From assembly GCF_003046175.1 (NCBI RefSeq), contig NZ_PZZM01000001.1, forward strand, positions 5,349,001-5,413,000: 64,000 nucleotides of DNA. Reading direction: 5' to 3'. The translations under genes and the position numbers were made by a program. Numbering within the stretch: position 1 is the first letter of the stretch; each line of letters starts with the position of its first letter. The notes beneath the pieces were generated by a model, which saw only the letters and a program-made list of their open reading frames with translations, was not told where the DNA came from and ran no database searches. This stretch comes from Bosea sp. 124. GTDB lineage: Bacteria > Pseudomonadota > Alphaproteobacteria > Rhizobiales > Beijerinckiaceae. This document shows, one piece after another, positions 7,798 through 44,529 of this stretch.

Positions 7798-8226
7798 CTA
7801 GCGCTCGGCGGGAATCGAATAGGTGCCCGTCGCGTGGCCGACCATCTCGCTCTCACCCTGAGAGAACAGCGAGACCTCACCTACGGCGAGCCGCTTGCCG
7901 AGCTTGAGCAGCCTCGCCTCTCCGATCAGCGCCGCCTTGCCCGGTTTGCGCAAGAAATTGAAGTTCAGGCTCGTGGTCACGGCGAGCGCGACAGGACCAA
8001 TCTGGCCGAGGATCGCGGCATAGAGCGCGAGATCGGCCAGCGCCATCATGGTCGGGCCCGAGATCGTGCCGCCGGGCCGCAGATGCTTCTCGTGATAGTC
8101 GCAGCGCATGCGGGCCGTCATCGGCCCGACCTCCTCGACGAAATAGGTGCGCCCGCCGATGTGAAGCTGCGGGAAGACCTCGTCGAGATAGGCCTCGAGG
8201 TCGGAAGCGGTCATGCGGTTGGTCAT
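7798..8226 (-). CDS. PaaI-family (hotdog) acyl-CoA thioesterase
   Basis: A 142-residue single-domain hotdog protein. The family pattern is clear: HLRPGGTISGPTMMALADLA (helix-facing acidic residue in the ALAD segment) and LNFNFLRKPGKAALIGEARL, ending with a beta-strand GHATGTYSIP. PaaI-like enzymes hydrolyse acyl- or aryl-CoA thioesters. The ATG at 8226 is favoured; an alternative ATG lies 4 codons downstream (8214), and the frame extends 32 unrelated codons upstream. It is divergent from the enoyl-CoA hydratase-like gene, consistent with CoA-ester metabolism. Confidence 0.85.
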   Translation of the reverse strand: MTNRMTASDLEAYLDEVFPQLHIGGRTYFVEEVGPMTARMRCDYHEKHLRPGGTISGPTMMALADLALYAAILGQIGPVALAVTTSLNFNFLRKPGKAALIGEARLLKLGKRLAVGEVSLFSQGESEMVGHATGTYSIPAER

Positions 8227-28061: not shown

Positions 28062-29108
28062 ATGTAGCATTTCGTGGGACTGGATGTGTCGCTGGCCGAG
28101 ACCGCCATCTGCATCGTGGATCAAGATGGGATCATCGTTACAGAGGGTAAAAGCCCGTCCGATCCGGAGGCCATTTCAACCTGGCTAAGCGATGCAGGCA
28201 TTGAGATCGACCGGATCGGGCTTGAGATCGGCGGGTTGTCTCGCTGGTTGTGCATTGAGTAAAAGGCTGGCGGCTGGCCCGCGTTCTGCATTGACCCTCG
28301 CCGCCTGCGAGGCGTCACGAAGACGATGCCGGTGAAGACAGATCGCAACGATGCGCGCGCGATTGCCCAGGTTATGCGTGTCGGCTGGTTCAACATCGTC
28401 CACATCAAAAGCACTCAGTCGCAGGAGCTGCGCATGCTCCTGGCCAATCGCAAAGCGCTCCTCACCAAGCAGATCGATATCGAGAACGAGATCCGTGGGA
28501 CGCTTCGCGTCTTTGGCCTGAAGCTGTCTGGCCGGATCCAGCATGCTGTGTTCGAGCCGCGGGCCTCAGAGCTTCTCGCCGATCACCCGCGACTGGCCGC
28601 CATAGTGCAGCCGATGTTGATTGCCCGCGCCGCTCTTCGCGATCAGTGCGCTGTCCTGCACAGGATGCTGCTGCAACTCATCAGGAAGGATGAAGTCTGC
28701 CGCAGGCTGATGACGGTTCCGGGCGTGGGAGCACTGACGGCCATCACCTTCGTCACCACTGTCGACGATCCGGCTCGTTTTGAACGGTCGCGGGATGTCG
28801 GTCCACACCTCGGCCTGACACCGCGCAAGTATGCTTCCGGCGAGGTCGATCGCAACGGGGCAATCTCTAAATGCGGTGACGGCCTGTGTCGCTCCACGCT
28901 GTCTCAGGCCTCGCTGCCGCTATTGACCCGCACCAAGCGCTGGTCCTCGTTGAAGGCTTGGGGCATGTCGGTGGCCAAGCGAAGGGGACTGCGTCGCGCG
29001 GTCGTCGCGGTCGCTCGCAAGCTCGCCATCATCATGCATCGGATTTGGACTGACGGGGCCGAGTTCCGTTGGTTCCGCGAGGAGGCCACAGCCTGGACGA
29101 TGAGGTAG
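28062..29108 (+). pseudogene. IS110-family transposase pseudogene
   Basis: One frame encodes a near-full IS110 transposase: the DEDD N-terminal start HFVGLDVSLAETAICIV, MPVKTDRNDARAIAQVMRVG, and the Transposase_20 part VCRRLMTVPGVGALTAITFV with LGLTPRKYASGEVDRNG. It is broken by a TAG immediately after the ATG (28065-28067) and a TAA at 28260-28262. The conserved block after KCGDG is also degenerate. GGGGAG before the ATG marks the original start. No flanking repeats are expected for IS110 and none are seen. Confidence 0.85.
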
Positions 29109-29318
29109 ACGAGCTCCGCCGCGTCGGCGGACGGGCGTCCGCGAGGACAAGGTCGAGGTGACTGCGCTGCAACCTTTGTGCACTTAGCCCGCGTTTCTGT
29201 AGATAGCAGCCCCCCGATCATCGGACCACATTCCTGAGGCGGCCAAAGCGCCGACCTCGCAGACAAGAGCGAGCCTCGCGGTCACCATTGGGGAGTTAAC
29301 GCCCGGTTCTCGGAACTA

Positions 29319-30150
29319 GGCTCAGGACTCATTGATCAGAGCCAGAAGATGACGGCTGCGGCGATGCAGATTGCCGAGAAGAAAGTGTGGGCGCATCGAT
29401 CGTAGCGGGTTGCGATGCGGCGCCAGTCCTTGAGCTTGGCGAAGAGGTTCTCGACCTTGTGGCGCTGGCGGTAGAGCGCCTTGTCATAAGGGTACGGGGT
29501 TTTCCGGCTTCGGCTCGAGGGGATGCAGGGCGCGATGCCCTTGGCGGCGAGCGCCTGGCGGAACGGCGTGCTGTCGTAGCCACGATCGGCGATGAGGGTT
29601 TTGGCTGGCGGCAGGGCGGCGAGCACGAGGCTTGCGCCCTTGTGGTCGCTCATCTGGCCTTCCGACAGGAGCATGATGATTGGGCGGCCGCTCTCGTCGC
29701 AGACAGTGTGGAGCTTGGAGTTCAGCCCGCCCTTGGTCCGCCCGATACGACGGGGAACAGCCCCTTTTTGAGCAGGCTCGCCGCCGTGCGATGGGCCTTG
29801 AGATGCGTCGCGTCGATCATGATGCGCTCCGGCTTGGGTCCCTCGCCGGCGAGCCCGGCGAAGATCCGGTCGAAGACGCCGAGCCGGCTCCAGCGGATGA
29901 AGCGGTTGTAGAGCGTCTTGTGGGGACCGTAGCCCTTGGGCGCGTCCTTCCACTGCAGGCCGCTGCGGATGATGTAGACGATCCCGCTCACCACGCGCCG
30001 ATCATCGACCCGTGGCACGCCATGCGAGAGCGGAAAATGCGGCGATATCCGCGTCATCTGCCGCTCGCTCAGCAAAAACAAATCATTCATCACAGCGTCC
30101 TCCCAGACACCGTGAATCACAGATCAAACGAATTTAATAGGTCCTGAGCC
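29319..30150 (-). mobile_element. IS5-superfamily insertion sequence (IS427-like)
   Basis: An ~832-base element bounded by 10-bp perfect terminal inverted repeats (GGCTCAGGAC at 29319-29328 and its complement at 30141-30150). The repeats are flanked on both sides by TA within CTAG, a plausible target duplication. It contains one two-frame transposase gene on the minus strand filling nearly the whole element, and both ends are complete, so it may still be active. Confidence 0.85.
29336..30090 (-). CDS. IS5-family transposase made by -1 frameshift
   Basis: The first frame (29722-30090) encodes the N-terminal part: MNDLFLLSERQMTRISPHF, the DDRRVVSGIVYIIRSGLQWKD region and the first DDE Asp in MIDATHLKAHRTA. 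The second frame (ending 29336) carries KGGLNSKLHTVCDESGRP, the second Asp in LIADRGYDS and the Glu in YRQRHKVENLFAKLKDWRRI. The frames overlap around AAAAAGGGG (29761-29769), a typical slippery site, and a -1 shift there joins them. GGGAGG precedes the ATG at 30090. No other disruption is seen. Confidence 0.85.
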
Positions 30151-32736: not shown

Positions 32737-33552
32737 TCAACTCTCCGGTTTGCCCCACAACTGCGAGACCCCCAGAAGCAGCGAGGTGATCACGATCATG
32801 ATCGTCGAGATCGCCGCGATGGTCGGGTCGATCTGGTCACGCAAAGCCATGAACATCGCGCGCGTCAGCGTCGAGTTGTCGCCGCCGGAGACGAAGAGCG
32901 AGACCACGACCTCGTCGAAGGAGGTCAGGAAGGAGAGCAGAGCCGAGGTGACGATGGAGAAGCCGATCTGCGGCATCGTCACCTGCAGGAAGGCCTGGGT
33001 ACGCGTCGCACCAAGGCTGCGGGCGACGCGCTCCTGGTCGAGATCGAAGCTCTTCAGGGCCGAGCCGACGATCATCATCACGATCGGGACGGCCAGGATC
33101 GTATGCGCCAGCACGATGCCGATGAAGGAGTTGACCATCTTCAACTGCACGAAAGCATAAAACAGCGCGATGCCGACGAGGATGACCGGGACGATGGTCG
33201 GGGTCAGCAACGCCAGGATCGCAACGCCTGCGAAGCGCAGCCGCGAGACATGCAGCCCATAGGCGGCGAGCGTCCCGACCGGCGTCGCCAGCAAGGCCGT
33301 GCAGAGGCCGGCCTTAAGCGAGGTCATGGTGGCGGCCATCCAGCTTCCCGAGGAAAAATAGGCCTCGTACCAGCGCAACGACCATTGCCGCGGCGGAAAC
33401 TCCAAATATTGCGAGTGCGAGAACGACATCGGGATCACGATCAGCGTCGGCAAGGCGAGAAACGCCAGAACCAGCACGCCGAGGCCGTAAAGCCAGAGCC
33501 GCGACCTGTGCGTGATCTGCGTGTCGCTGGCGGGACGATCGAGCCAGCTCAT
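32737..33552 (-). CDS. ABC transporter permease (PotC-like)
   Basis: A 271-residue inner-membrane permease with six predicted helices of the polyamine/opine-type family. The EAA loop is visible as EERVARSLGATRTQAFLQVTMPQI (first twenty residues EERVARSLGATRTQAFLQVT), where it docks the ATPase. The N-terminal SRLWLYGLGVLVLAFLALP helix and MSFSHSQYLEFPPRQWSLRW loop are typical of PotC/YdcV homologues. It is the last of four co-directional transporter genes, 2 bases after the other permease. Confidence 0.9.
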   Translation of the reverse strand: MSWLDRPASDTQITHRSRLWLYGLGVLVLAFLALPTLIVIPMSFSHSQYLEFPPRQWSLRWYEAYFSSGSWMAATMTSLKAGLCTALLATPVGTLAAYGLHVSRLRFAGVAILALLTPTIVPVILVGIALFYAFVQLKMVNSFIGIVLAHTILAVPIVMMIVGSALKSFDLDQERVARSLGATRTQAFLQVTMPQIGFSIVTSALLSFLTSFDEVVVSLFVSGGDNSTLTRAMFMALRDQIDPTIAAISTIMIVITSLLLGVSQLWGKPES

Positions 33553-33554
33553 GC

Positions 33555-34469
33555 TCAGTGGCCTCCCCCGAACAGGCCCGCACCGCGAGACAGCCGCGCC
33601 GCCAGCACCAGCACGACGAGCGTGATCACCAGAAGGACGACGCCAAGCGCGCTTGCCGCGCCCCAGTTGAAGAACAGCTCTATGTCGTTGGCGATGCGGT
33701 TCGAGACCATCGTCACCTTGCCGCCACCGAGCATGGCCGGCGTCACATAGAAGCCGAGGCAGAGCACGAAGACGAGGGCGGAGCCGGCGGCGAGCCCTGG
33801 CAGCGACAGCGGAAAGAACACGGTCCAGAAGCCATGGGCCGGGGTCGAGCCGAGGCTCGAGGCGGCGCGCAGCAGGTCACGATCAATCGCCCGCATCGTG
33901 CCGTAGAGCGGCAGGACGAGGAAGGGCAGCATGATATGGACCATGCCGACCAGCGTGCCGCCGACATTGTGGACGAGTTGCAGCGGTTCACTCCAGAGGC
34001 CGAGCTGGATGCCCCAGGTGTTGATCAGCCCACTGCGCTGCAGCAGCACGAGCCAGGCATAGGTGCGCACCAGGAGCGAGGTCCAGAACGGCAGCAGGAC
34101 CGCGATCATGCAGAGATTGGCGGCACGGCGCGGCAGTTGCGACAGGAAATAGGCGAGCGGATAGCCGAGCAGGATGCAGATCGCCGTGGTCAGCAGGCTG
34201 ATCTCGAAGGTGGTGCGGAAGGTCCGGCCATAGGAGGGCTCGGCCAGCATGCGCCGGTAGTGCTCCAGGCTCGGCGCGCCGGCATCGTCGAAGAAGGACA
34301 GGCCGAACAGCCAGCCGACCGGCAACAGGACCATGACGGTGACGAGCAGGAGGGCCGGCGCCGCCAGCGCAGCCAGTCCCAGCCGCTCGCGCCAGTGGTC
34401 GCGGCGCAGCGCGGCGGCGTGGAAATCTCCGCCATCCTCCGCGGCGATGCCGAGGCCCGGCGCACTCAC
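33555..34469 (-). CDS. ABC transporter permease (PotB-like)
   Basis: A 304-residue PotB/YdcU-type permease with six helices and a ~40-residue N-terminal cytoplasmic extension. LPFWTSLLVRTYAWLVLLQR and the EAA-loop region DLLRAASSLGSTPAHGFWTV are diagnostic. GTG is the start and it overlaps the ATPase gene stop by four bases (GTGA), as is usual in this operon. It forms the heteromeric channel with the PotC-like protein. Confidence 0.9.
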   Translation of the reverse strand: MSAPGLGIAAEDGGDFHAAALRRDHWRERLGLAALAAPALLLVTVMVLLPVGWLFGLSFFDDAGAPSLEHYRRMLAEPSYGRTFRTTFEISLLTTAICILLGYPLAYFLSQLPRRAANLCMIAVLLPFWTSLLVRTYAWLVLLQRSGLINTWGIQLGLWSEPLQLVHNVGGTLVGMVHIMLPFLVLPLYGTMRAIDRDLLRAASSLGSTPAHGFWTVFFPLSLPGLAAGSALVFVLCLGFYVTPAMLGGGKVTMVSNRIANDIELFFNWGAASALGVVLLVITLVVLVLAARLSRGAGLFGGGH

Positions 34470-35614
34470 GCCGGCACCCTCCCCTCGTCGACGAGCAGGA
34501 CCGTGTCGCTGACCGCGATGCCGACCGTGATCGCGGAGCCGGCGGCCGGCGGCGGGGCATCGTCGCCGCGCGTGGCCATGCGGAGGCTGACCGGGCTGCC
34601 ATCGGCAAGCACAAGCTGCAGCAGCAGCGTCTCGCCCTGATAGATCGCGTTCTGGACCTTGCCTTCGAACCGATTCATCGCCTCGCTCTCGCTGCCGTCG
34701 AGGATGCGCAGCCGTTCCGGCCGCAGCATCATCACGCAGCGACCTCGGGCGACCGGGACATTCGGCGCCCGAATGTCGGAGCCGGCGGCGTGACAGATGC
34801 CATCGACGACCTCCACCTCCAGAAAGGAGGACTCGCCGATGAACTCCGCGACGAAGCGGCTGCCGGGCTGGTCGTAGATCGCGCGCGGCGTGTCGATCCG
34901 GGCGATCCTGCCGCGATCGAGCACGGCGATGCGGTCCGACATCGTCAGGGCCTCGCGCTGGTCGTGCGTGACATAGACGGTGGTGGTGCCGAGCCTGTCA
35001 TGGAGCTGGCGCAGCTCGATCTGCATGCGCTCGCGAAGCTGCTTGTCGAGCGCCGAGAGCGGCTCGTCCATCAGGATGATGCGCGGCTCAAAGACGATGG
35101 CCCGGGCCAGCGCGACGCGCTGGCGCTGGCCGCCGGAAAGCTGGGTGATGCTGCGGCCGCCATAGCCGCCGAGCTGGAACATCTCCAGGGCGGCCTCGAC
35201 GCGCCTTGCGATCTCGGGCGCCGGCACCCGCCGCAGCCGCAGCGGAAAGCCGACATTGCGCGCGACATCCATGTGCGGAAACAGCGCATAGTTCTGGAAG
35301 ACCATGCCGATCTCGCGCTTGTGCGGCGAGAGCCGGACGACCTCGCGCTCGCCGATGCGGATGCTGCCCTTGTCGGGCCGCAGGAAACCGGCGATCGCCA
35401 TCAGCAGCGTCGTCTTGCCGGAGCCGGACGGGCCGAGCAGGGTCAGGAATTCGCCGGGCCTGACGTCGAGATCGACATCGTCGAGCACCGAAACCGCGCC
35501 ATAAGCCTTGCTCAGGCGCCGGACGGCGATGGGCAGGGCGTTGCCCATCGCAGGAGCGGAGGGAGCCGCGGCCGTCGGCGCCGCCAACTCCCCGGGGTTG
35601 GCCGCCTGCCTCAT
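34466..35614 (-). CDS. ABC transporter ATP-binding protein (PotA-like)
   Basis: A 382-residue ATPase with Walker A GPSGSGKTTLL, Q-loop MVFQNYALFPHMDV, signature LSGGQRQRVALARA, Walker B ILMDEPLSALD and the H-loop VTHDQREAL. A C-terminal ~120-residue TOBE regulatory domain follows (REGR.. GKVQNAIYQGETLLLQL). It energises the PotBC-like permeases. The ATG at 35614 overlaps the binding-protein gene stop (ATGA); an Ala/Pro-rich ~25-residue N-terminus precedes the catalytic core. Confidence 0.92.
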   Translation of the reverse strand: MRQAANPGELAAPTAAAPSAPAMGNALPIAVRRLSKAYGAVSVLDDVDLDVRPGEFLTLLGPSGSGKTTLLMAIAGFLRPDKGSIRIGEREVVRLSPHKREIGMVFQNYALFPHMDVARNVGFPLRLRRVPAPEIARRVEAALEMFQLGGYGGRSITQLSGGQRQRVALARAIVFEPRIILMDEPLSALDKQLRERMQIELRQLHDRLGTTTVYVTHDQREALTMSDRIAVLDRGRIARIDTPRAIYDQPGSRFVAEFIGESSFLEVEVVDGICHAAGSDIRAPNVPVARGRCVMMLRPERLRILDGSESEAMNRFEGKVQNAIYQGETLLLQLVLADGSPVSLRMATRGDDAPPPAAGSAITVGIAVSDTVLLVDEGRVPA

Positions 35615-36666
35615 TCCGTCAGCATGTTCTGGTAGGCCGCCGAGGCCTGGGCCTCGAACTTGGTGTACCAGTCGAGATCGATCGGCAGTTGCTTGGCGGC
35701 GTTGTCGGGGTGGGACGGCAAGGTCTTGGCATAGGCCGCCTCGATCAGGCCGAGCTCGTAGGCCTTCTTGTTGGTCGGGCCGTAGGTGATGTATTTGGTG
35801 AATTCGGCCTGGTATTCCGGCTTGCTGATCTCGGCGAGGAACTTCATCGCCAGGTCCTTGTTGGGCGCGCCCTTGGCAATACCGTAGCAGTCATAGTCGA
35901 GCAGCGCCTGGTTGAAGGTGTAGGCGACCTTGGCGCCATCCTTGGCGGCGACATCGAAGCGGCCGTTCCATCCGGTGATCATGTCGACCTCGCCATCCTT
36001 CATGAGCTGGGCGTGCTGGGCACCGGACGCCCACCAGACCGCGACATGAGGCTTCAGCTCGCGGATTTTCTTGATTGCGCGCTCGATGCCGCCGGGCTGC
36101 GACAGGACCTCGTAGACCTTCTCCGGCGGCACGCCATCGGCCATCAATGCCGGCTCGAGCGAGCCGGCGACGCCCTTGCGGTAGGAGCGCTTGCCCGGAA
36201 ACTTCTTCACGTCCCAGAAATCGGCCCAGCTCTGCGGACCGTTCTGGCCGTAGGTCTTGGTGTTCCAGGCGAGCACCGTCGAGAACACGTCGCCGCCAAC
36301 GCAGTAATCCTGCGCGGTACCGGGGATGAAATTCGAGGTGTCGATGACCTTGTAGTCGAGCTTTTCGAGAATTCCCTCGGAGCCGGCGCGGGCCGCGCTG
36401 CCGGAGCCACTGGCGACTATGTCCCAAGTCACGGCGCCAGCCTTCACCTTCAGGCGCAGATCGGCGATGCCGCTATAGGTCTCCTCCTTGAGCTTGATGC
36501 CGAGCTTCTTGGCGGCGGGCACGAACAGGGCCTTGCTCTGCGCCTCCTGGTAGGAGCCGCCGAAGGAAACGACGGTGAGCTCCTGCGCGAAGGCGGGCAT
36601 CGCGCCGGCCAAGCTCAGGAGAAGGGCGAGAGTCGATCGCGACGGCAGGATCGGCTGGCACAGCAT
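35611..36666 (-). CDS. Extracellular solute-binding protein (PotD/PotF-like)
   Basis: A 351-residue periplasmic receptor with a signal peptide (to AFAQE near residue 28), then LTVVSFGGSYQEAQSKALFV, as in polyamine and opine-like binding proteins. YKVIDTSNFIPGTAQDYCVG and MITGWNGRFDVAAKDGAKV mark the two lobes. The ligand is not predictable but polyamine-like or small amine/amino-acid-like compounds are usual. It is first in the transporter operon; AGGAG lies 7 bases before the ATG, and a three-part operator lies about 100-145 bases upstream. Confidence 0.9.
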   Translation of the reverse strand: MLCQPILPSRSTLALLLSLAGAMPAFAQELTVVSFGGSYQEAQSKALFVPAAKKLGIKLKEETYSGIADLRLKVKAGAVTWDIVASGSGSAARAGSEGILEKLDYKVIDTSNFIPGTAQDYCVGGDVFSTVLAWNTKTYGQNGPQSWADFWDVKKFPGKRSYRKGVAGSLEPALMADGVPPEKVYEVLSQPGGIERAIKKIRELKPHVAVWWASGAQHAQLMKDGEVDMITGWNGRFDVAAKDGAKVAYTFNQALLDYDCYGIAKGAPNKDLAMKFLAEISKPEYQAEFTKYITYGPTNKKAYELGLIEAAYAKTLPSHPDNAAKQLPIDLDWYTKFEAQASAAYQNMLTE

Positions 36667-36763
36667 GTCATGTCTCCTGATCTGAACCACACATGTCCAT
36701 CGGCGGTCGCAAGGCCGCCAAAGCGCCCCGTCCCACCTCTGTCAGCGTAGAGAATTTGTGGAA

Positions 36764-36810
36764 ATTGGACTGCCCATAAGGTCCATTCTGAGAATTGGGG
36801 GAGTCCAATC
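36764..36810 (-). promoter_or_regulatory. Three-part MocR-type operator, transporter operon promoter
   Basis: Read on the plus strand: ATTGGAC at 36764, GTCCATTCTGA at 36781 and GTCCAATC at 36803. The outer pieces form an inverted repeat (ATTGGAC/GTCCAAT) with a third half-site between. The same pieces, with the same offsets (0, 17, 39), occur at 40812-40858. It lies upstream of the solute-binding protein gene. Confidence 0.7.
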
Positions 36811-36816
36811 GACTAC

Positions 36817-38115
36817 TCAGCGGGCGAGCCGGTCGCGCCAGCGGTAAAACAGCACCGAAGGCGCGAGGAACCATGGATTGCCGCTGTAGAAAGGCCTCGT
36901 CTGGAAAGGCAGGCCATCGAAAGCGGTCGCCCCTTCCGGCAGGCCGAGCACCTGCTGGCCGAGGCGCATGCCGAGATAGCTCGCCATGCCGACGCCCGAG
37001 CCGCAGTAGCCCATCGCATAGTGGATGCCGTCATGGCGGCCGATGTGCGCCAGTTCGTCGAAGGTATAGGCGACGAAGCCGCACCAGGAATGACTGATCC
37101 GCGTCGTCGCCAGCTCCGGGAAGATCGCGCTCAGATCGGCATGGAGCTTCGGCCCGCTGCGACGCGGATCGGTTTCGCTGAGCGAGACCCGTCCGCCGAA
37201 CAGGATGCGCCGCCGGTCCGGCGAGGCGCGGTAGTAGTAGACGACCTTGCGCGTGTCGCTGACGATGCGGTTGCGCGGCATCAGGCGGTCCATCAGCGCG
37301 GGATCGAGCGGCTCGGTCGCGATCATGTAGCTGCCGATCGGAATGACGCGACGGCGCAGCCAGCCGGTCAGCGGCCCGGTATAGCCATTGGTGGCGACGA
37401 CGACGTCGCGCGCCTGGATCGTGCCACGCGGCGTCTCGACCACGAAGCCCTGTCCCGAGCGCGTGATCGCGGTCGCCGGGCAGAACGGCACGAGTTCGGC
37501 GCCGGCGACCATGACACGTTCGAGCAGGCCCTGATGATAGCGCGCCGGATCGAGGGAGGCATGCTCGGCATAGAGCGCGCCGCCATGATAAAGGTCCGAA
37601 CCGATCTCGTCGCGCTGTTCGGCGCGCGGCACGACATGGCAGGCGACAGCGAGGCCCTTAGGCTGGTTGTCGACCTGCCGCGCCAATTCCTCGTATTGTC
37701 CGGGGGAATGGGCGGCGTGGAAGCGCCCGGCCACGCGGAAATCGCAGTCCAGCCCCTCATCGCGGATGAACGCGCCGATCCATTTCAGCGAGCGGCGCCC
37801 CTCCTGCAGGATCGCGACCGCCCTCGCCTCGCCATGGCGCCGGGTCAGCTCCGCAAGCCCCGGCTTGATGCTGGTCGAGATCTGGCCGCCATTGCGCGTG
37901 CTGCAGCCGAAGCCCGCGGCTTCCGCATCGAGCACCACCGTGCTGCGCCCGCTCCGCGCGATCTGGAGTGCCGCATGCAGGCCGGTATAGCCGGAGCCGA
38001 CGATCACGACATCGGCCTGCTTTGGAGGCTCCGATGGCGCCAGCTCGGGCCGCGGAACCCCGTCCCACCAATAGGGCGCCGCCTTGAAATCGGCGGTGAA
38101 CAGCTCGCTCGACAT
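36817..38115 (-). CDS. FAD-dependent amine/amino-acid oxidase (DAO, PuuB-like)
   Basis: A 432-residue DAO-family flavoenzyme. ADVVIVGSGYTGLHAALQIA is the Rossmann FAD motif at residues ~34-53, GFGCSTRNGGQIS follows as in PuuB/OrdL-type enzymes, and the C-terminal IGRHDGIHYAMGYCGSGVGM completes the FAD site. It probably oxidises a secondary or primary amine, giving an aldehyde for the adjacent dehydrogenase. The substrate is unassigned. It follows the aldehyde dehydrogenase gene by 23 bases. Confidence 0.87.
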   Translation of the reverse strand: MSSELFTADFKAAPYWWDGVPRPELAPSEPPKQADVVIVGSGYTGLHAALQIARSGRSTVVLDAEAAGFGCSTRNGGQISTSIKPGLAELTRRHGEARAVAILQEGRRSLKWIGAFIRDEGLDCDFRVAGRFHAAHSPGQYEELARQVDNQPKGLAVACHVVPRAEQRDEIGSDLYHGGALYAEHASLDPARYHQGLLERVMVAGAELVPFCPATAITRSGQGFVVETPRGTIQARDVVVATNGYTGPLTGWLRRRVIPIGSYMIATEPLDPALMDRLMPRNRIVSDTRKVVYYYRASPDRRRILFGGRVSLSETDPRRSGPKLHADLSAIFPELATTRISHSWCGFVAYTFDELAHIGRHDGIHYAMGYCGSGVGMASYLGMRLGQQVLGLPEGATAFDGLPFQTRPFYSGNPWFLAPSVLFYRWRDRLAR

Positions 38116-38138
38116 TCCGTCTCGTCCCCCCGGCCGGC

Positions 38139-39632
38139 TCAGAGCCGCGCCACCACACTCTTGAGCTTGCAGTAGCTGCGCAAGCCCGCCATGCCCTTGG
38201 CCCGCCCGAAACCCGATTTGCGGTTACCGCCGAACGGCATGGCGACGCCCCCGGCAAAGAACTCGTTGATGTAGACCTGCCCCGCATCGACGGCCCGGGC
38301 GAAGCGCCAGGCCTGGGCATGGTCGCGGGTGTAGATGCCGGCCACCAGCGCATAGGAGGTCGCATTCGCCGCCGCGATCGCCTCCTCCAGCCCCGACACG
38401 ATCTGAACGGTCAGGACCGGGCCGAAAATCTCCTCCTGCACCAGCGGGTCGTCCAGGCCCCGCGCCAGGACGATGGTCGGACGGTAGAACCAGCCGCCGC
38501 CGCAGTCCTCCGGCCGAACGGTGCTGCCGCCGGTCAGGATGCGGTTGCCGGCGGCTCGTGCCCGCTCGACATGCGACTCGATGCGCGCGAGCTGCTGCAC
38601 TGAGTTGATCGGCCCGATCGCGGCATCGCCCAGACCATGGCCCAGCGTCATCGCCTCGACGCGCGCGACCAGACGGCCAAGCACGTTCTCCGCGATCGCC
38701 TTCTCCACGATCAGCCGCGAGCCGGCCGAGCAGATCTGGCCGGCATTCTCGTAGATCGCGCCGATCACGCCCTCGATGGCCGTCTCGATCTCGCAATCGG
38801 CCATGAGCACCACTGGCGATTTGCCGCCGAGTTCGAGCTGCAACCGTGTCGCATGCTCGGCCGCCGCCCGCATCACGCGCTGGCCGGTGGCGACCGAGCC
38901 GGTGAAGGTGATGTGGTCGATGCCGGGATGAGCGACGAGCGCCGCGCCGGCCTCGGCGCCGGTTCCCGCGACAACGTTGAGCACGCCATCGGGCAGGCCG
39001 GCCTCGTGCAGCAATTCGGCCAGCATCAGCGTGGTGAAGGGCGTCTGCTCGGCCGGCTTGACGACCAGCGTGCAGCCGGCGGCGAGTGCCGGCGCAATGC
39101 CGCGTGCGGCCGTCGACAGCGGATAGTTCCAGGGCACGATCTGCGCGACGACGCCGACCGGCTCCTCGATCGTCACGCCGAGATAGTCCGGCCCGAGCGG
39201 CACGCTGTCGCCCTGCAGCTTGTCGGCCGCACCGGCGTAATAGGCGAAGGTGCGGACCACGCCGCCGACATCACCCTCGGATTCGGCCAGAAGCTTGCCG
39301 GAATCGAGCGTCTCGACCACGGCGAAGCGCGCTGCCCGCTCGCACAGCAGTTGGCTCGCCCGCATCAGGATCTCGCCCCGCGCGGCAGGCGTCATGCGCG
39401 ACCATGGGCCCGAAAGCGCAGCCCGGGCGGCCGCCACCGCCGTTGCCACGTCCTCGGCGCCGCCCGCCGCGACGCTGGCGAAGGGAGCACCGCGACCGGG
39501 GTCGGAGCTCTCCATTTCCCGCCCCGACACGGAGGCTACGATCCGCCCGTCGATGAAATGCCCGCGCGGCAGGCCCGCGACGGTGCCGGTGCTCCGCGCT
39601 TCCTCGATCAGTTCCGACCGGTCGAACGTCAC
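38139..39632 (-). CDS. Aldehyde dehydrogenase family protein
   Basis: A 497-residue NAD(P)-dependent [13 protein letters not shown] and [11 protein letters not shown] bind cofactor, [11 protein letters not shown] is the G-motif, the general base is the Glu in LELGGKSPV (about residue 267) and the nucleophile is the Cys in [11 protein letters not shown] (about residue 301). Both catalytic residues are present. It would oxidise the aldehyde made by the neighbouring amine oxidase. The start is GTG at 39632, overlapping the stop of the enolase-superfamily gene (GTGA). Confidence 0.9.
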
Positions 39633-40735
39633 GCCGAAACCTCGGTGACGCAATACTCCGCCCGCTCGAGCCAGGACGGCTCGATCTCGACGCCCCAGCC
39701 GGGCTCGGAGGGAATCGCGACCATGCCGTCCTTCGCCCTGGGCGGGTTGCGCAGCAGCCCCTGCTCCCACGGGTAGTAGTCCGGCCCCTCGATCGAGAAC
39801 TCGACATAGGGTCCCGCATTGGCGAGCGCGCCCATGACGTGGAGGGTGAAGACCGTCACCATCGACTGGTTGGCCGAATGCGGCGTCACCGGGAGGCCTG
39901 CTTCAGCTGCCCAGCGCGCCACGGTCAGCATCCGCCCGACGCCGCCGATATAGCAGAGGTCCGGCTGCACGACATCGACATCGTGCCCGTCGATCATCGA
40001 CCGCCAGACGGCGAGGTCGCAATCCTGCTCGCCGCCTGTGACATCGAGATCGAGCGCCTCGCGGACCTCGCGGGTCCAGGCATGCTCCCAATAGGGGCAA
40101 GGCTCCTCGAAATGTACGACGCCATGGTCCTGCAGCATGCGGCCGACCGCGATCGCCTTCGCCGGCGAATAGCCGCTATTGGCATCGACCAGCAGGGTCG
40201 CGCCAGGCCCCAGCGCCGCGCGCACCAGCGGCACGATCGCGTCGGTGCGGCCCGGCCATTCATCCTGATCGCGGCCGCATTCACGCCCGACCCGAAACTT
40301 GAAGGCGCTAAAGCCATGCGCGTCGCGCAACCGGACGAGACGCTCGGCCTCGGCCTCGGGGGTAATCTCGCCGCGCTTCATGCTGGAGGCGTAGACGGGG
40401 AAAGGCCTCGGCGTGCCGCCGAGCAGTTCGCAGACGCTCTTGCGCTCCTTGCGCCCGCGCCAATCCCACAGCGCGGTGTCGAGCCCGGTCAAAGCGCGGC
40501 AAAGATAGGAGCCCGGAAACTTGTGCTCGCGCTCGCCGATCGTCGCGACGAGTTCGTCGATCGCTAGGGCATCCTCTCCGACCGCCCAGCGCGCGACCTG
40601 CCGGTGAAAGACAGCCGCCGTGATGTCGGCGTTATAGGGCGAGAACTGGCCCCAGCCCTGGCTGCCATCCTCGCAGGTCGCACGGACAAAACCGACATCC
40701 TGCGTCGTGAAGCTTTCGAGCCGGGTGATCCTCAT
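39629..40735 (-). CDS. Enolase-superfamily enzyme (mandelate racemase/muconate lactonizing type)
   Basis: A 368-residue MR/MLE enzyme. The lid domain is followed by the barrel: [13 protein letters not shown] (catalytic KxR-type segment on strand 2), metal ligands in [20 protein letters not shown] and [12 protein letters not shown], then a His in [12 protein letters not shown]. Reactions in this family begin with proton abstraction alpha to a carboxylate: racemisation, dehydration or cycloisomerisation. Substrate unknown. It is the first gene of a unit with the ALDH and amine oxidase genes and is divergent from the mocR gene. Confidence 0.87.
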
Positions 40736-40811
40736 GGCAGCCGCCGTCAACTCCGTCACTGCGGCCAGGCGCGATTGCGAGGTCTCAGGATGAGGCCGAG
40801 AGGGGGCTTGA

Positions 40812-40858
40812 ATTGGTCTGAACCCAAGGTCCATTCTGACGAAAGCAGCAGTCCAATC
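40812..40858 (+). promoter_or_regulatory. Three-part MocR-type operator between the enolase-superfamily and mocR genes
   Basis: ATTGGTC at 40812, GTCCATTCTGA at 40829 and GTCCAATC at 40851, with exactly the same spacing as at 36764-36810. It lies 32 bases before the regulator start and 77 bases before the divergent enolase-family start, so it can control both directions, including autoregulation. Confidence 0.75.
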
Positions 40859-40889
40859 TTGGGATGGCGCTCGCTTGCTGGAGGATGGC

Positions 40890-42374
40890 ATGGTCAAGCG
40901 TGAGGAAGGCGTCCTGCTTCAGTCGATCGTGCTGGACCGCGACGGGCCGCACGGTCTCAGCGTCCAGATCTGCGTCGGCCTGCGCGAGCTGATCCTGAGC
41001 GGCGCGCTCAAGGTCGGCGAGCGTCTGCCGGCGACGCGCACGCTGGCGCAGGAGTTCGGCGTCGCCCGCACCACCATCGTCGAGAGCTTTGAGCGACTGG
41101 CCGCCGAGGGGCTCGTTGAGACCCGCGTCGGCGCTGGCACCTATGTCAGCCGGGCTCTGGCGAGCGAACGACCGGCGCCGGCCGCAGCGGCGGTGGCCGT
41201 GCCGACGGCCAAGGTGCGGCTGGCGCAGGCGATGGACTCGGCCTCCAAGCTGTTCGGCGCGCGCCTGCCGCACCAGCCGCGCGCCTTCACCACGGCGATG
41301 CCGGCCTTCGACGCCTTCCCGATGGCGCAGTGGGCCAAGCTGTCGGGCCGGCACTGGCGGAAGGCCCGCTATCAGGTTCTCGGCTATCCCGACCCGCATG
41401 GCGAAGCCGTGCTGCGACAGGCGATCGCCGCGCATCTGCGACTCAACCGCGGCATTGCCTGCGAATGGCAGCAGATCTTCATCGTGGCCGGCGCCCAACA
41501 GGCCTTCCAGCTTCTCGCTGCGACGCTGATCAATCCGGGCGACAAGGTCTGGTTCGAGAATCCGGGTGCGATCGGCGCCCGCAACAGCCTGATCCTGTCG
41601 GGGGCCGACATCGTGCCGGTGCCGGTCGACGAAGCCGGCCTCGTTGTCGAGGAGGGATTGCGCCGCGCGCCCGATTTCAAGCTCGCCTTCGTCACGCCGG
41701 CCCATCAGCAACCGCTCGGCGCCAAAATGAGCCTGGAGCGGCGCCTCGCTTTGCTGGAAGCGGCGCAGGCGAGCTCCGCCTGGATCATCGAGGATGATTG
41801 GGACGGCGAGTTCTGCTTCCAGGGCGCACCGATGGCGACGCTGACCAGCATCGACCTGACCGGACGGGTGATCTATGTCGGCACCTTCTCGAAGACGCTG
41901 TTTCCGTCGCTCCGGCTCGGCTTTCTTGTCGCTCCGCCGCAGCTCGCCGAGCAGATCGGCATCTGCCTCGACGCCTATTCGCCGGGCGTGCCGACGGCCC
42001 TGCAGGGCATCGTCGCGGACTTCATCGTCGAGGGCCATTTCGCCACCCATGTCCGGCGCATGCGCAAGCTCTACCAGGAACGCCATCAGGCATTGATCGG
42101 GGCTGCAGGCACGCATCTCGCCGGCGATCTCACGGTCGTGCCGACCCATACCGGGATGCACACCATCGCCTTCCTGCGCGACGGCCTCGACGCCGTGGCG
42201 GTGACGCAGGCGGCAGCACGGCGCGGCATCACCGTCGCGCCGATCAGCCGCTTCGGCCTCGAGCCGGTCGAGCGCGACGGGCTCGTCCTCGGCTTCAGCG
42301 GCTTCACCCCGGCGCAGATCCAGGCCGGCGTACTGGGCTTGCGGCAGGCGATCGACGATCTCGCGGCAGGCTGA
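40890..42374 (+). CDS. MocR-family (GntR/aminotransferase fusion) transcriptional regulator
   Basis: A 494-residue regulator. The N-terminal ~75 residues are a winged HTH of the GntR type ([20 protein letters not shown]), joined by an Ala/Pro linker to a class I aminotransferase-like domain. That domain has [30 protein letters not shown] [10 protein letters not shown] and the PLP lysine in [15 protein letters not shown]. MocR proteins sense PLP or PLP-adducts of amines and bind direct/inverted repeats. GGAGGA precedes ATG 40890; TTG at 40875 is unlikely. It likely controls the flanking genes in both directions. Confidence 0.92.
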
Positions 42375-42385
42375 GAAACTCGCGA

Positions 42386-42433
42386 ATTGGACTGGCTATT
42401 TGGGCGGAATGGCTCTTAGCGACAAGCCCAATC
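42386..42433 (+). promoter_or_regulatory. Weaker third copy of the MocR-type operator before the GMC gene
   Basis: ATTGGAC at 42386 and GCCCAATC at 42426 keep the outer inverted arms, with GCGGAATGGCT between (similar to the complement of GTCCATTCTGA). The outer spacing is one base longer than in the other two copies. It lies about 55-100 bases before the GMC start. Confidence 0.5.
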
Positions 42434-42485: not shown

Positions 42486-44096
42486 TTGGAGGAATGGGAC
42501 GTCATCGTCATCGGCGCGGGTTCGGCCGGCTGCGCGCTGGCCGGGCGCCTCGCCATGTCGGGACGCGATCGCATCCTCGTGCTGGAGGCCGGTCCGCGCG
42601 ACCTCAACCCCTGGCTGCATCTGCCGATCGGCTACGGCAAGACCTTCTATCACCCGCGCCTGAACTGGATGTACCGGACGGAAAGCCAGCCGGGCCTCGC
42701 CGGGCGCGAGATCTACCAGCCGCGCGGCAAGGTCGTGGGCGGATCGAGCGCAATCAACGCCATGGTCTATATGCGCGGCCAGGCCGAGGATTTCGACGGC
42801 TGGGAGCGCATGGGCAACCCCGGCTGGGGCTGGCGCGACGTGCTCGCCACCTATCGGCGCATGGAGGACCACGCTCTCGGCTCGTCCACCTGGCATGGCG
42901 CGGGCGGCCCGCTGCATGTCGAGGATGTCTCGCAGGCGGTGCATCCCCTCACCCCGCTCTTCGTCAAGGCGGCGCAGGAAGCGGGCCTGCCCTTCAATCC
43001 CGACCTTAACGGCGAAACCTGCGAGGGCGCCGGCATCTACCAGATCACCACGCGCGGCGGCCTGCGCGAGTCCGCCGCGCGGGCCTATCTGCACCCGGCG
43101 CGCAAGAGCGGGCGCGTCAAGGTCGAAACCGGCGTGCTGGCCTCGCGCATCCTGTTCGACGGGCGCCGCGCCGTCGCTGTCGAAGGCTGGCGCGACGGCC
43201 GGCCGGTCAGCTACCGCACGGCCGGCGAGATCGTGGTCGCGGGCGGCGCGATCAATTCTCCGCAACTCCTGCAGCTTTCCGGCATCGGTTCGCCTGAGCT
43301 TCTGGCGCGGCACGGCATCGCGACCGTGCAGGCGTTGCCGGCGGTCGGCGCGCATCTTCAGGACCATCTCTGCTACGACCATGTCTATCGTTCGCGGCAG
43401 CCGAGCCTGAACGACGAGCTTTTGTCCTGGCCCGGACGGATCGGCATGGCGCTGAGCTATGTGTTGCACCGGCGCGGCCCGCTCTCGCTCAGCGTCAACC
43501 AGGGCGGCGGCTATTTGCGCACGCGTCCCGAACTCGACCGCCCCGACATGCAGCTCTATTTCTCCCCGCTGAGCTATGAGCGCGCCCTGCCCGGCGTGCG
43601 AGCCCTGATGAGACCGGACCCTTTCTCCGGCTTCAGCACCAGCGTATCGCCGTGCCGGCCGCACAGCCGCGGCCATGTCGCGATCCGCTCTGCCGATCCC
43701 CGGACCGCACCAGAGATCGCGCCGAACTACCTTTCCGATCCGCGCGACGTGCATGACATCCTCAGCGGGGCGCGCTTCCTGCGGCGGTTGGCGGAAACGC
43801 CGACCTTTGCGGCGCTGATCGAGAGCGAAATCAAGCCGGGCCCGCACTGCCTCGACGACGCCACGCTGCTCGAATCCATCCGGCAGCAGGCCTATTCGGT
43901 CTTCCACCCCTGCGGCACCTGCCGCATGGGGCCGGATGCTGCCGATTCCGTGGTCGATGCCAGGCTGAAGGTGCATGGCATCGAAGGCCTGCGCGTCGCG
44001 GATGCCTCGGTCTTCCCGACGATCCCCTCGGGCAACACCAATGCGCCCGCCATGATGGTGGGTGAGCGGGCGGCCGACCTCATGCTCACGGACTGA
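42486..44096 (+). CDS. GMC-family FAD oxidoreductase
   Basis: A 536-residue choline dehydrogenase/glucose oxidase-like flavoprotein. WDVIVIGAGSAGCALAGRLA is the N-terminal Rossmann motif, GGSSAINAMVYMRGQAEDFD is GMC signature 1, GAINSPQLLQLSGIGSPELL is signature 2, and the C-terminal SVFHPCGTCRMG and NTNAPAMMVGERAADL complete the catalytic His/Asn region. It oxidises an alcohol group. The TTG start at 42486 with GGGAG upstream is preferred over TTG 42447. RidA follows after 88 bases. Confidence 0.88.
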   Translation: MEEWDVIVIGAGSAGCALAGRLAMSGRDRILVLEAGPRDLNPWLHLPIGYGKTFYHPRLNWMYRTESQPGLAGREIYQPRGKVVGGSSAINAMVYMRGQAEDFDGWERMGNPGWGWRDVLATYRRMEDHALGSSTWHGAGGPLHVEDVSQAVHPLTPLFVKAAQEAGLPFNPDLNGETCEGAGIYQITTRGGLRESAARAYLHPARKSGRVKVETGVLASRILFDGRRAVAVEGWRDGRPVSYRTAGEIVVAGGAINSPQLLQLSGIGSPELLARHGIATVQALPAVGAHLQDHLCYDHVYRSRQPSLNDELLSWPGRIGMALSYVLHRRGPLSLSVNQGGGYLRTRPELDRPDMQLYFSPLSYERALPGVRALMRPDPFSGFSTSVSPCRPHSRGHVAIRSADPRTAPEIAPNYLSDPRDVHDILSGARFLRRLAETPTFAALIESEIKPGPHCLDDATLLESIRQQAYSVFHPCGTCRMGPDAADSVVDARLKVHGIEGLRVADASVFPTIPSGNTNAPAMMVGERAADLMLTD

Positions 44097-44184
44097 GCGC
44101 CGCACATTGCCATCGGCGTGCCGATCGCAGAGACAGGCCCGGGACTTTCACCAAAGCCCCTTAGCAACCCCTCGAGGAGAGACC

Positions 44185-44529
44185 ATGATCACGCGCCACG
44201 AAGTGACCGGACGACTGAGCAAGGTGCTCGTCGCCAACGGTTTCGCCTTCCTCTCGGGCCTGACCGCCAAGGACCGCAGCGGCGGCGTCAAGGAGCAGAC
44301 CGCCGACATCCTCGCGCAAATCGACGGCTATCTGAAGCTCGCCGGCACGGACAAGACCCGCATCGCCGTCGCCAATATCTGGCTCAAGGACATCTCGACC
44401 TTCGCAGAGATGAACGCCGCCTGGGAAGCCTGGGTCGACCAGACGCAACCGCCCGCGCGCGCCACGGTCGAGTCGCGTCTGGCCGCCGAGGACATCCTGG
44501 TCGAGATCCAGGTCCAGGCGCTCGTCTGA
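44185..44529 (+). CDS. RidA family protein
   Basis: A 114-residue YjgF/YER057c/UK114 protein: ADILAQIDGYLKLAGTDKTR, VANIWLKDISTFAEMNAAWE and PPARATVESRLAAEDILVEI. The Arg that binds the imine/enamine carboxylate is in the ARATVES stretch. RidA proteins hydrolyse reactive 2-aminoacrylate and similar enamines, which fits a pathway with amine oxidation upstream. GAGGAGA precedes the ATG. Confidence 0.9.
   Translation: MITRHEVTGRLSKVLVANGFAFLSGLTAKDRSGGVKEQTADILAQIDGYLKLAGTDKTRIAVANIWLKDISTFAEMNAAWEAWVDQTQPPARATVESRLAAEDILVEIQVQALV

Follow-up and report, generated by a model that had tools for sequence, protein, structure and literature searches.

A three-box operator predicted to link the operons of an oxidative catabolic cluster in Bosea sp. 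124 to the cluster's own MocR regulator

Bosea sp. 124 carries a gene cluster which, by Pfam assignment, encodes an ATP-binding cassette (ABC) importer, a mandelate-racemase-type enolase, an aldehyde dehydrogenase, a flavin adenine dinucleotide (FAD) dependent oxidase, a GMC oxidoreductase and RidA, and which also holds a mocR gene. How could the separate operons of such a cluster be controlled together? The window, that is, the whole stretch of 64,000 nucleotides that was analysed (contig NZ_PZZM01000001.1, positions 5,349,001 to 5,413,000), had been described in an earlier note, which proposed that a repeated three-part word ties the transporter operon, the divergon of mocR and the enolase-aldehyde dehydrogenase-oxidase operon, and GMC-ridA to one MocR. 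This proposal was strongly supported at the level of sequence. The 47-base triplet is very probably the dedicated operator of the cluster's own MocR, predicted to stand in one copy before each cluster operon, and this reading rests on conservation, near-exclusive location at the cluster genes, joint occurrence with the regulator, a constant spacing and a fixed polarity. The copies would serve the ABC transporter operon, the enolase-aldehyde dehydrogenase-oxidase operon, whose site is shared with mocR, and GMC-ridA.

The words ATTGG(A/T)C, GTCCATTCTGA and GTCCAATC were found at exact offsets of 0, 17 and 39 from position 36764 and again from position 40812, just as first read. Operator 1 (36764..36810, plus strand, E 2.8e-7 in the genome) was located upstream of the minus-strand transporter operon, with an inverted box (36764-36770) which faces the transporter gene and two direct boxes (36781-36787 and 36803-36809). 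Operator 2 (40812..40858, plus strand, E 1.0e-5 in the genome) occupied the divergent enolase/mocR intergenic region, with its inverted box at 40812-40818 and its direct boxes at 40829-40835 and 40851-40857. A third arrangement had been placed near 42386; a site does exist there, and what had to be given up was its assumed same orientation and its description as a weak copy. Operator 3 (42385..42432, upstream of GMC-ridA) lies on the minus strand, reading from 42431 to 42385, with direct boxes at 42386-42392 and 42408-42414 and an inverted box at 42426-42432, one base further out than in operators 1 and 2. Its middle box (42408-42414), which had been overlooked in the earlier note, is its own, AGCCATT on the minus strand.

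The exact triplet pattern occurred only at 36764 and 40812 in the genome of 5,470,773 bases, and a degenerate 47-base pattern allowing up to three mismatches gave the same two places alone. A sequence-only profile, for which 37 sites in other genomes had been used, reported three matches at E<=10 among the best 150 of 664 candidates scored, and all three were cluster operators, so the pattern was not scattered over the genome. When the window was scanned by profile with filters off, operator 3 was detected at E=7.9e-4 and the next-best match had E 1.8. With a matrix from loci of less than 84% identity, the top three scores in the window were 48.2 at 36764(+), 34.7 at 40812(+) and 11.6 at 42385(-), and the fourth, 4.0, overlapped operator 2 on the other strand. 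The middle word by itself carries no significance within the window (8 matches at up to two mismatches versus 11.9 expected); the significance resides in the triplet.

Rather than distinct elements, the parts are one half-site, NWCCANT, present three times: inverted at 0, direct at 17 and direct at 39, so that the order viewed from the structural gene is direct, direct, inverted. In the matrix of related loci, information was concentrated in the boxes and in AAG ahead of the middle box, while the spacers were variable. The spacing between the two direct boxes was 22 bases, about two helical turns, in all 149 sites scoring at least 20; between the inverted box and the first direct box it was 17 in 124 of them and 18 in 25, which is no whole number of helical turns. 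Thus the sites form a three-box operator of the MocR kind, with spacing largely constant within the ortholog group.

For conservation, 99 stretches with a related regulator were found by genome-contig search and 80 loci were kept, from Bosea, Pseudolabrys, Stella, Roseibium/Labrenzia, Stappia, Acuticoccus, Rubrivivax and others; 66 of them (L033-L097 and L112) were analysed, and 14 of at most 44% identity (L098-L111) were left out. The operator stood between enolase and mocR in 64 of the 66 loci with offsets unchanged, down to 47% protein identity, so the related clusters do carry the pattern. The remaining two were a locus with mocR at the contig start (L093) and one with a degenerate site (L063). 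At least two sites were present in 61 of the 66 loci. All three operators existed in 14 of the 15 close loci (at least 84% identity), the fifteenth being a 4.2-kb contig without the operator 1 region, and the orientation and the 18-base spacing of operator 3 were kept in 15/15. A matrix from these 15 close loci found the same position in all 49 of the more distant upstream regions (51 loci below 84% identity minus L063 and L093) and beat all local control stretches in 43 of them.

A flexible matrix scan of the 66 loci (1.04 Mb) gave 161 matches at a score of at least 15 and one match in reversed sequence, and 15 column-permuted matrices gave 0-6 matches against 201 for the real matrix counted alike. 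These numbers bear on whether the repeat could be chance or an ancestral duplication of DNA with no regulatory role. Operators 1 and 2 do have the longer identical middle word GTCCATTCTGA in common, as a duplication would leave, but conserved boxes between variable spacers, the excess over reversed controls and the fixed polarity described below make such an origin practically negligible.

The polarity was tallied over 160 intergenic matches, after one inside a gene (L097) had been set aside. The inverted box faced the start of a matched cluster gene in 155 of them, and in 84 of the 85 informative cases, where the far side is a gene end, it pointed to the gene start. There were 67 sites in front of mocR, of which 64 face enolase across the divergon, and these are uninformative for polarity; two mocR-facing sites (L077 and L079, both at 7922) were a mirror-image overlap with the main site. 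In 24 of the 155 facing sites the ABC ATPase gene was more than 400 bases off, typically 1.2-1.7 kb, which we attribute to a diverged, unmatched binding-protein gene between site and ATPase, one case (L076) having been checked. Two further sites (L067:7909 and L068:7926) face enolase across a methyltransferase gene, at a distance of about 1 kb. The exceptions to the polarity were L067:4876 and L068:4861, which face the starts of TauD-type genes 22 and 39 bases away, L060:292 at a contig edge, and two weak matches (L063:3355 and L079:832).

The same two loci, L067 (4600-8000) and L068 (4700-8000), had five operator copies each at a score of at least 15, with a divergent back-to-back operator pair between the ABC ATPase and the TauD-type dioxygenase and with a methyltransferase gene inserted between enolase and mocR that has an operator copy at its start.

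Four loci (two Acuticoccus, Vannielia and a metagenome-assembled genome of Oceanicola) have the GMC gene in the opposite orientation, and the site was turned together with it in three of them, scoring 15.9 (L090), 24.3 (L094) and 17.1 (L096). In two genomes of another genus (G094 and G130), the 19.5 kb around mocR contained enolase, aldehyde dehydrogenase, GMC and a different transporter, without the oxidase; the oxidase and a close transporter were found elsewhere with their own operator (38.9) of the same polarity. The binding protein of this remote module was 86-89% identical to that of the window, and in G130 the oxidase-transporter module and mocR share a contig, about 2.6 Mb apart. In addition, a separate transporter operon with its own operator (L169) was found in G144. 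Two Roseibium genomes had an operator copy away from the cluster, by another enolase-superfamily gene (L170:3284 and L171:3215), so the regulon may be wider there.

Regulator and operator were also found in the same genomes. Among 61 genomes of the genus, a mocR ortholog (E<=1e-110) was present in 20, and operator matches (E<=0.1) in the identical 20, with at most the best 101 operator candidates and the best 25 regulator candidates scored per genome. Among 397 genomes of the order, scored by the best 15 operator candidates and the best three regulator candidates, the regulator was in 25, operator matches (E<=0.01) in 24 and both in 21; operators were thus found in 21 of the 25 genomes with the regulator versus 3 of the 372 without. 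One genome with the regulator (G028) had no profile match at E<=0.01, yet two sites were found by matrix (37.4 and 35.1). As for the three operator matches without a regulator at E<=1e-110, in G403 a MocR of 40% identity adjoins the site, G112 had a partial operator match without cluster genes, and G105 (L172) had an operator beside enolase and aldehyde dehydrogenase, where the regulator may have diverged, been lost or been missed among the three candidates.

The case of G105, and the 30 matches to MocR-like or aminotransferase-like proteins in the window's genome, would fit the idea that some other regulator, or a general factor, acts at the sites and that the adjacency of mocR is incidental. 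This is improbable, since regulator and sites keep to the same 20 of 61 congeners, the profile search of the genome reported no further site among its scored candidates, the site adjoins mocR in 64/66 loci, and the box architecture is the commonest one of MocR proteins. The protein predicted to bind the triplet is, in all likelihood, this MocR.

The product of mocR has the domain make-up of the MocR/GabR subfamily, an N-terminal GntR winged helix joined to an aminotransferase-like domain of fold type I, as PF00392 and PF00155 both scored above their cut-offs and the protein aligned over its full length to GabR (4n0b, E 6.8e-48); its best solved match was 7pq9 (E 2.6e-55), which is named only as an aminotransferase-family protein. 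A segment of 14 residues aligned with the lysine motif of GabR, 'tfsksllpglrisy', whose lysine we take to bind pyridoxal 5'-phosphate (PLP). The NCBIfam model of PdxR gave 382.7 bits against a cut-off of 320, and that of the rhizopine MocR gave 454.5 bits, above the PdxR score and below its own cut-off of 650. Neither was accepted as the functional identity: all three reported genome sites lie in the catabolic cluster and not at vitamin B6 genes, which speaks against PdxR, and the rhizopine MocR score stays under the cut-off.

The earlier note had regarded a triplet of fixed spacing as unusual for MocR proteins, which does not agree with the published survey. The combination of two direct boxes and one inverted box is ranked there as the most frequent MocR motif, with 103 regulogs and 245 regulons, or 32% of regulons (Suvorova and Rodionov 2016, PMC5320631), and so the architecture is ordinary. 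According to that survey, box distances amount to one or several helical turns and GabR is a head-to-tail dimer (PMC5320631). The sites described here resemble that class in box number, orientation, helical-turn spacing and TGG core, in a mostly constant spacing with slight variation, and in having the regulator divergent from a target; five regulogs of the survey include RidA genes (PMC5320631). The present target set was not found in the parts of it that were searched, and its supplementary regulog tables may list it. Our literature search, which did not cover those tables, found no paper on such a catabolic gene set controlled by MocR. The present analysis adds the predicted regulon over 66 loci, a correction of the third site, and rules of polarity and spacing.

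Three known systems are close enough for comparison. PdxR of Bacillus clausii and Corynebacterium glutamicum is likewise described as one MocR which binds mixed direct and inverted repeats and is divergent from its target (PMC5320631); its targets, however, are vitamin B6 genes, whereas a transporter and oxidising enzymes are concerned here, and its PLP-free form is the activator (PMC5320631), whereas a ligand-loaded activator is suggested here. YczR operators, as given in PMC4944035, have near-identical half-site words in three copies (GTCCACT, ACTGGAC and GTCCATT), but YczR belongs to another MocR group (its NCBIfam model scored 178.6 with a cut-off of 487.4) and acts on yczE. GabR of Bacillus subtilis is a solved full-length relative with other target genes.

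For the promoter context, a -10-like element, TANNNT, was sought past the inverted box, at +7 to +10. Among the distant loci, 20 of 26 promoters of the transporter and 21 of 53 of enolase had it, with maxima of 7 and 8, respectively, in 300 shuffles. Where this element is real, the inverted box is positioned between the putative -35 and -10 regions and the direct pair upstream of them.

Several points weigh against the operator reading or its promoter placement. At distant loci the element was present at only 4 of 13 GMC promoters, equal to the shuffled maximum of 4, and at 1 of 9 MotA-like transporter promoters. In the close group, including the window, it was not enriched (enolase 0/16, GMC 2/16, transporter 1/15), and therefore the promoter placement is not supported for the window. 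Operator 3 alone is weak genome-wide (E 0.066). The matrix sites were picked with a consensus read from these same loci, which makes the close-to-distant test not wholly independent, and near relatives of the window's genome are among the training loci, while that genome itself supplied none. The co-occurrence tests scored only the best candidates per genome, and some of their genomes also gave training sites, so they are not fully independent either. One locus with a turned GMC gene (L091) had no site in front of it, the best score being 5.1. Two genomes (G174 and G222) have the regulator but only degenerate sites (12.7-13.0), for which a changed specificity is possible, and one genome with a regulator of 42% identity (G120) had no operator at E<=0.01 among its best 15 candidates. 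By eye, the middle box was clearer than the outer boxes in the degenerate operators of G222 and G174 (L177 and L178).

If the operator is dedicated to this MocR, the mode of action probably, though less firmly than the assignment of the operator to it, combines activation with self-repression, by analogy with known members of the family. A head-to-tail MocR dimer would occupy the two direct boxes. Loaded with PLP and a substrate-derived amine, it would turn the structural operon on, in the manner of GabR with PLP and gamma-aminobutyric acid (GABA), while the inverted box, in the core promoter, would serve the off state, and mocR would repress itself at the site shared with the enolase operon. 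Direct boxes at a rigid distance of about two helical turns are in keeping with a head-to-tail dimer, and together with an inverted box between -35 and -10, where the -10-like element is real, this favours activation. The idea of a switch from one kind of box to the other comes from the model of PdxR as summarised in PMC5320631, and the ligand-loaded activation from GabR in the same survey, which is opposite to PdxR.

The same operator could also serve a pure repressor, with boxes covering the -35 and -10 of the structural promoters and an inducer releasing the protein, as for EnuR, an ectoine regulator. We hold this possible, though clearly short of an even chance. An inverted box between -35 and -10, if the -10-like element is real, would suit it, and EnuR is presented in PMC8739950 as a MocR-type repressor with predicted operators which overlap the promoter core. 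A plain roadblock would, however, have no need of a direct pair with a rigid 22-base spacing and a fixed orientation upstream of the core, and the putative -35 region was poor by eye, as at activated promoters.

A more speculative form of the activation model, which we put forward only tentatively, is a polar switch, with the inverted box within the core promoter and the direct pair upstream, in which the regulator would leave the inverted pair (off state) for the direct pair (on state) once PLP reacts with the inducer. If it were true, evolution would have left a trace of this movement over about 150 copies, in a polarity that is fixed and in a direct spacing that is rigid where the inverted one is looser.

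The predicted regulon would be clean and dedicated: one regulator with two or three sites in each genome. The uncharacterised pathway of oxidation that it would serve ranges from Bosea to Roseibium and some betaproteobacterial records. The roughly 150 natural operator copies of known polarity can be used for testing head-to-tail MocR dimers on mixed boxes, and a simple reporter could reveal what induces the cluster.

As for the substrate, the best solved relative of the binding protein was 5l9g (311 bits), named MotA, which we take to be an opine-binding protein, although the literature search found no paper confirming it. Further solved relatives were an unnamed ABC binding protein (4i1d), two GABA-sensor constructs, an agropine permease, a polyamine binding protein and a mannopine binding protein. 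Nearness to MotA, with agropine, polyamine and mannopine binders further down, gives a hint of opine-like cargo, and the NCBIfam names of the transporter suggest polyamine cargo. For the FAD oxidase, no relative of solved structure was found at E<=1e-20. That the nutrient is an opine- or Amadori-like sugar-amine compound is a guess, and a doubtful one.

The transporter operon runs on the minus strand from operator 1. Its first gene, facing the operator, encodes the ABC solute-binding protein (35611..36666, PF13416, with an alternative GTG start at 36690), followed by the ATPase (34466..35614, PF00005, above the cut-off of the potA subfamily model), permease 1 (33555..34469, PF00528) and permease 2 (32737..33552, PF00528). 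Operator 2 is faced on the minus strand by the first gene of the second operon, that of the enolase-superfamily enzyme of mandelate racemase type (39629..40735, PF13378/PF02746), after which come the aldehyde dehydrogenase (38139..39632, PF00171) and the FAD-dependent oxidase of the DAO family (36817..38115, PF01266). On the plus strand, mocR (40890..42374) encodes a GntR winged helix and an aminotransferase-like domain, as shown by PF00392, PF00155 and the GabR alignment; its start was set at ATG 40890 because ATGGT(C)AA(A/G) recurs among related upstream regions. The GMC oxidoreductase gene (42486..44096, plus strand) has an uncertain TTG start, its PF00732/PF05199 matches having been obtained on the open reading frame from 42447, and the RidA-family protein (PF01042) is given by the bounds of its open reading frame (44062..44529, plus strand), with the matched part from about 44194. 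Two open frames at 28326-29953, close to where the transporter operon ends away from operator 1, resembled transposase genes by eye.

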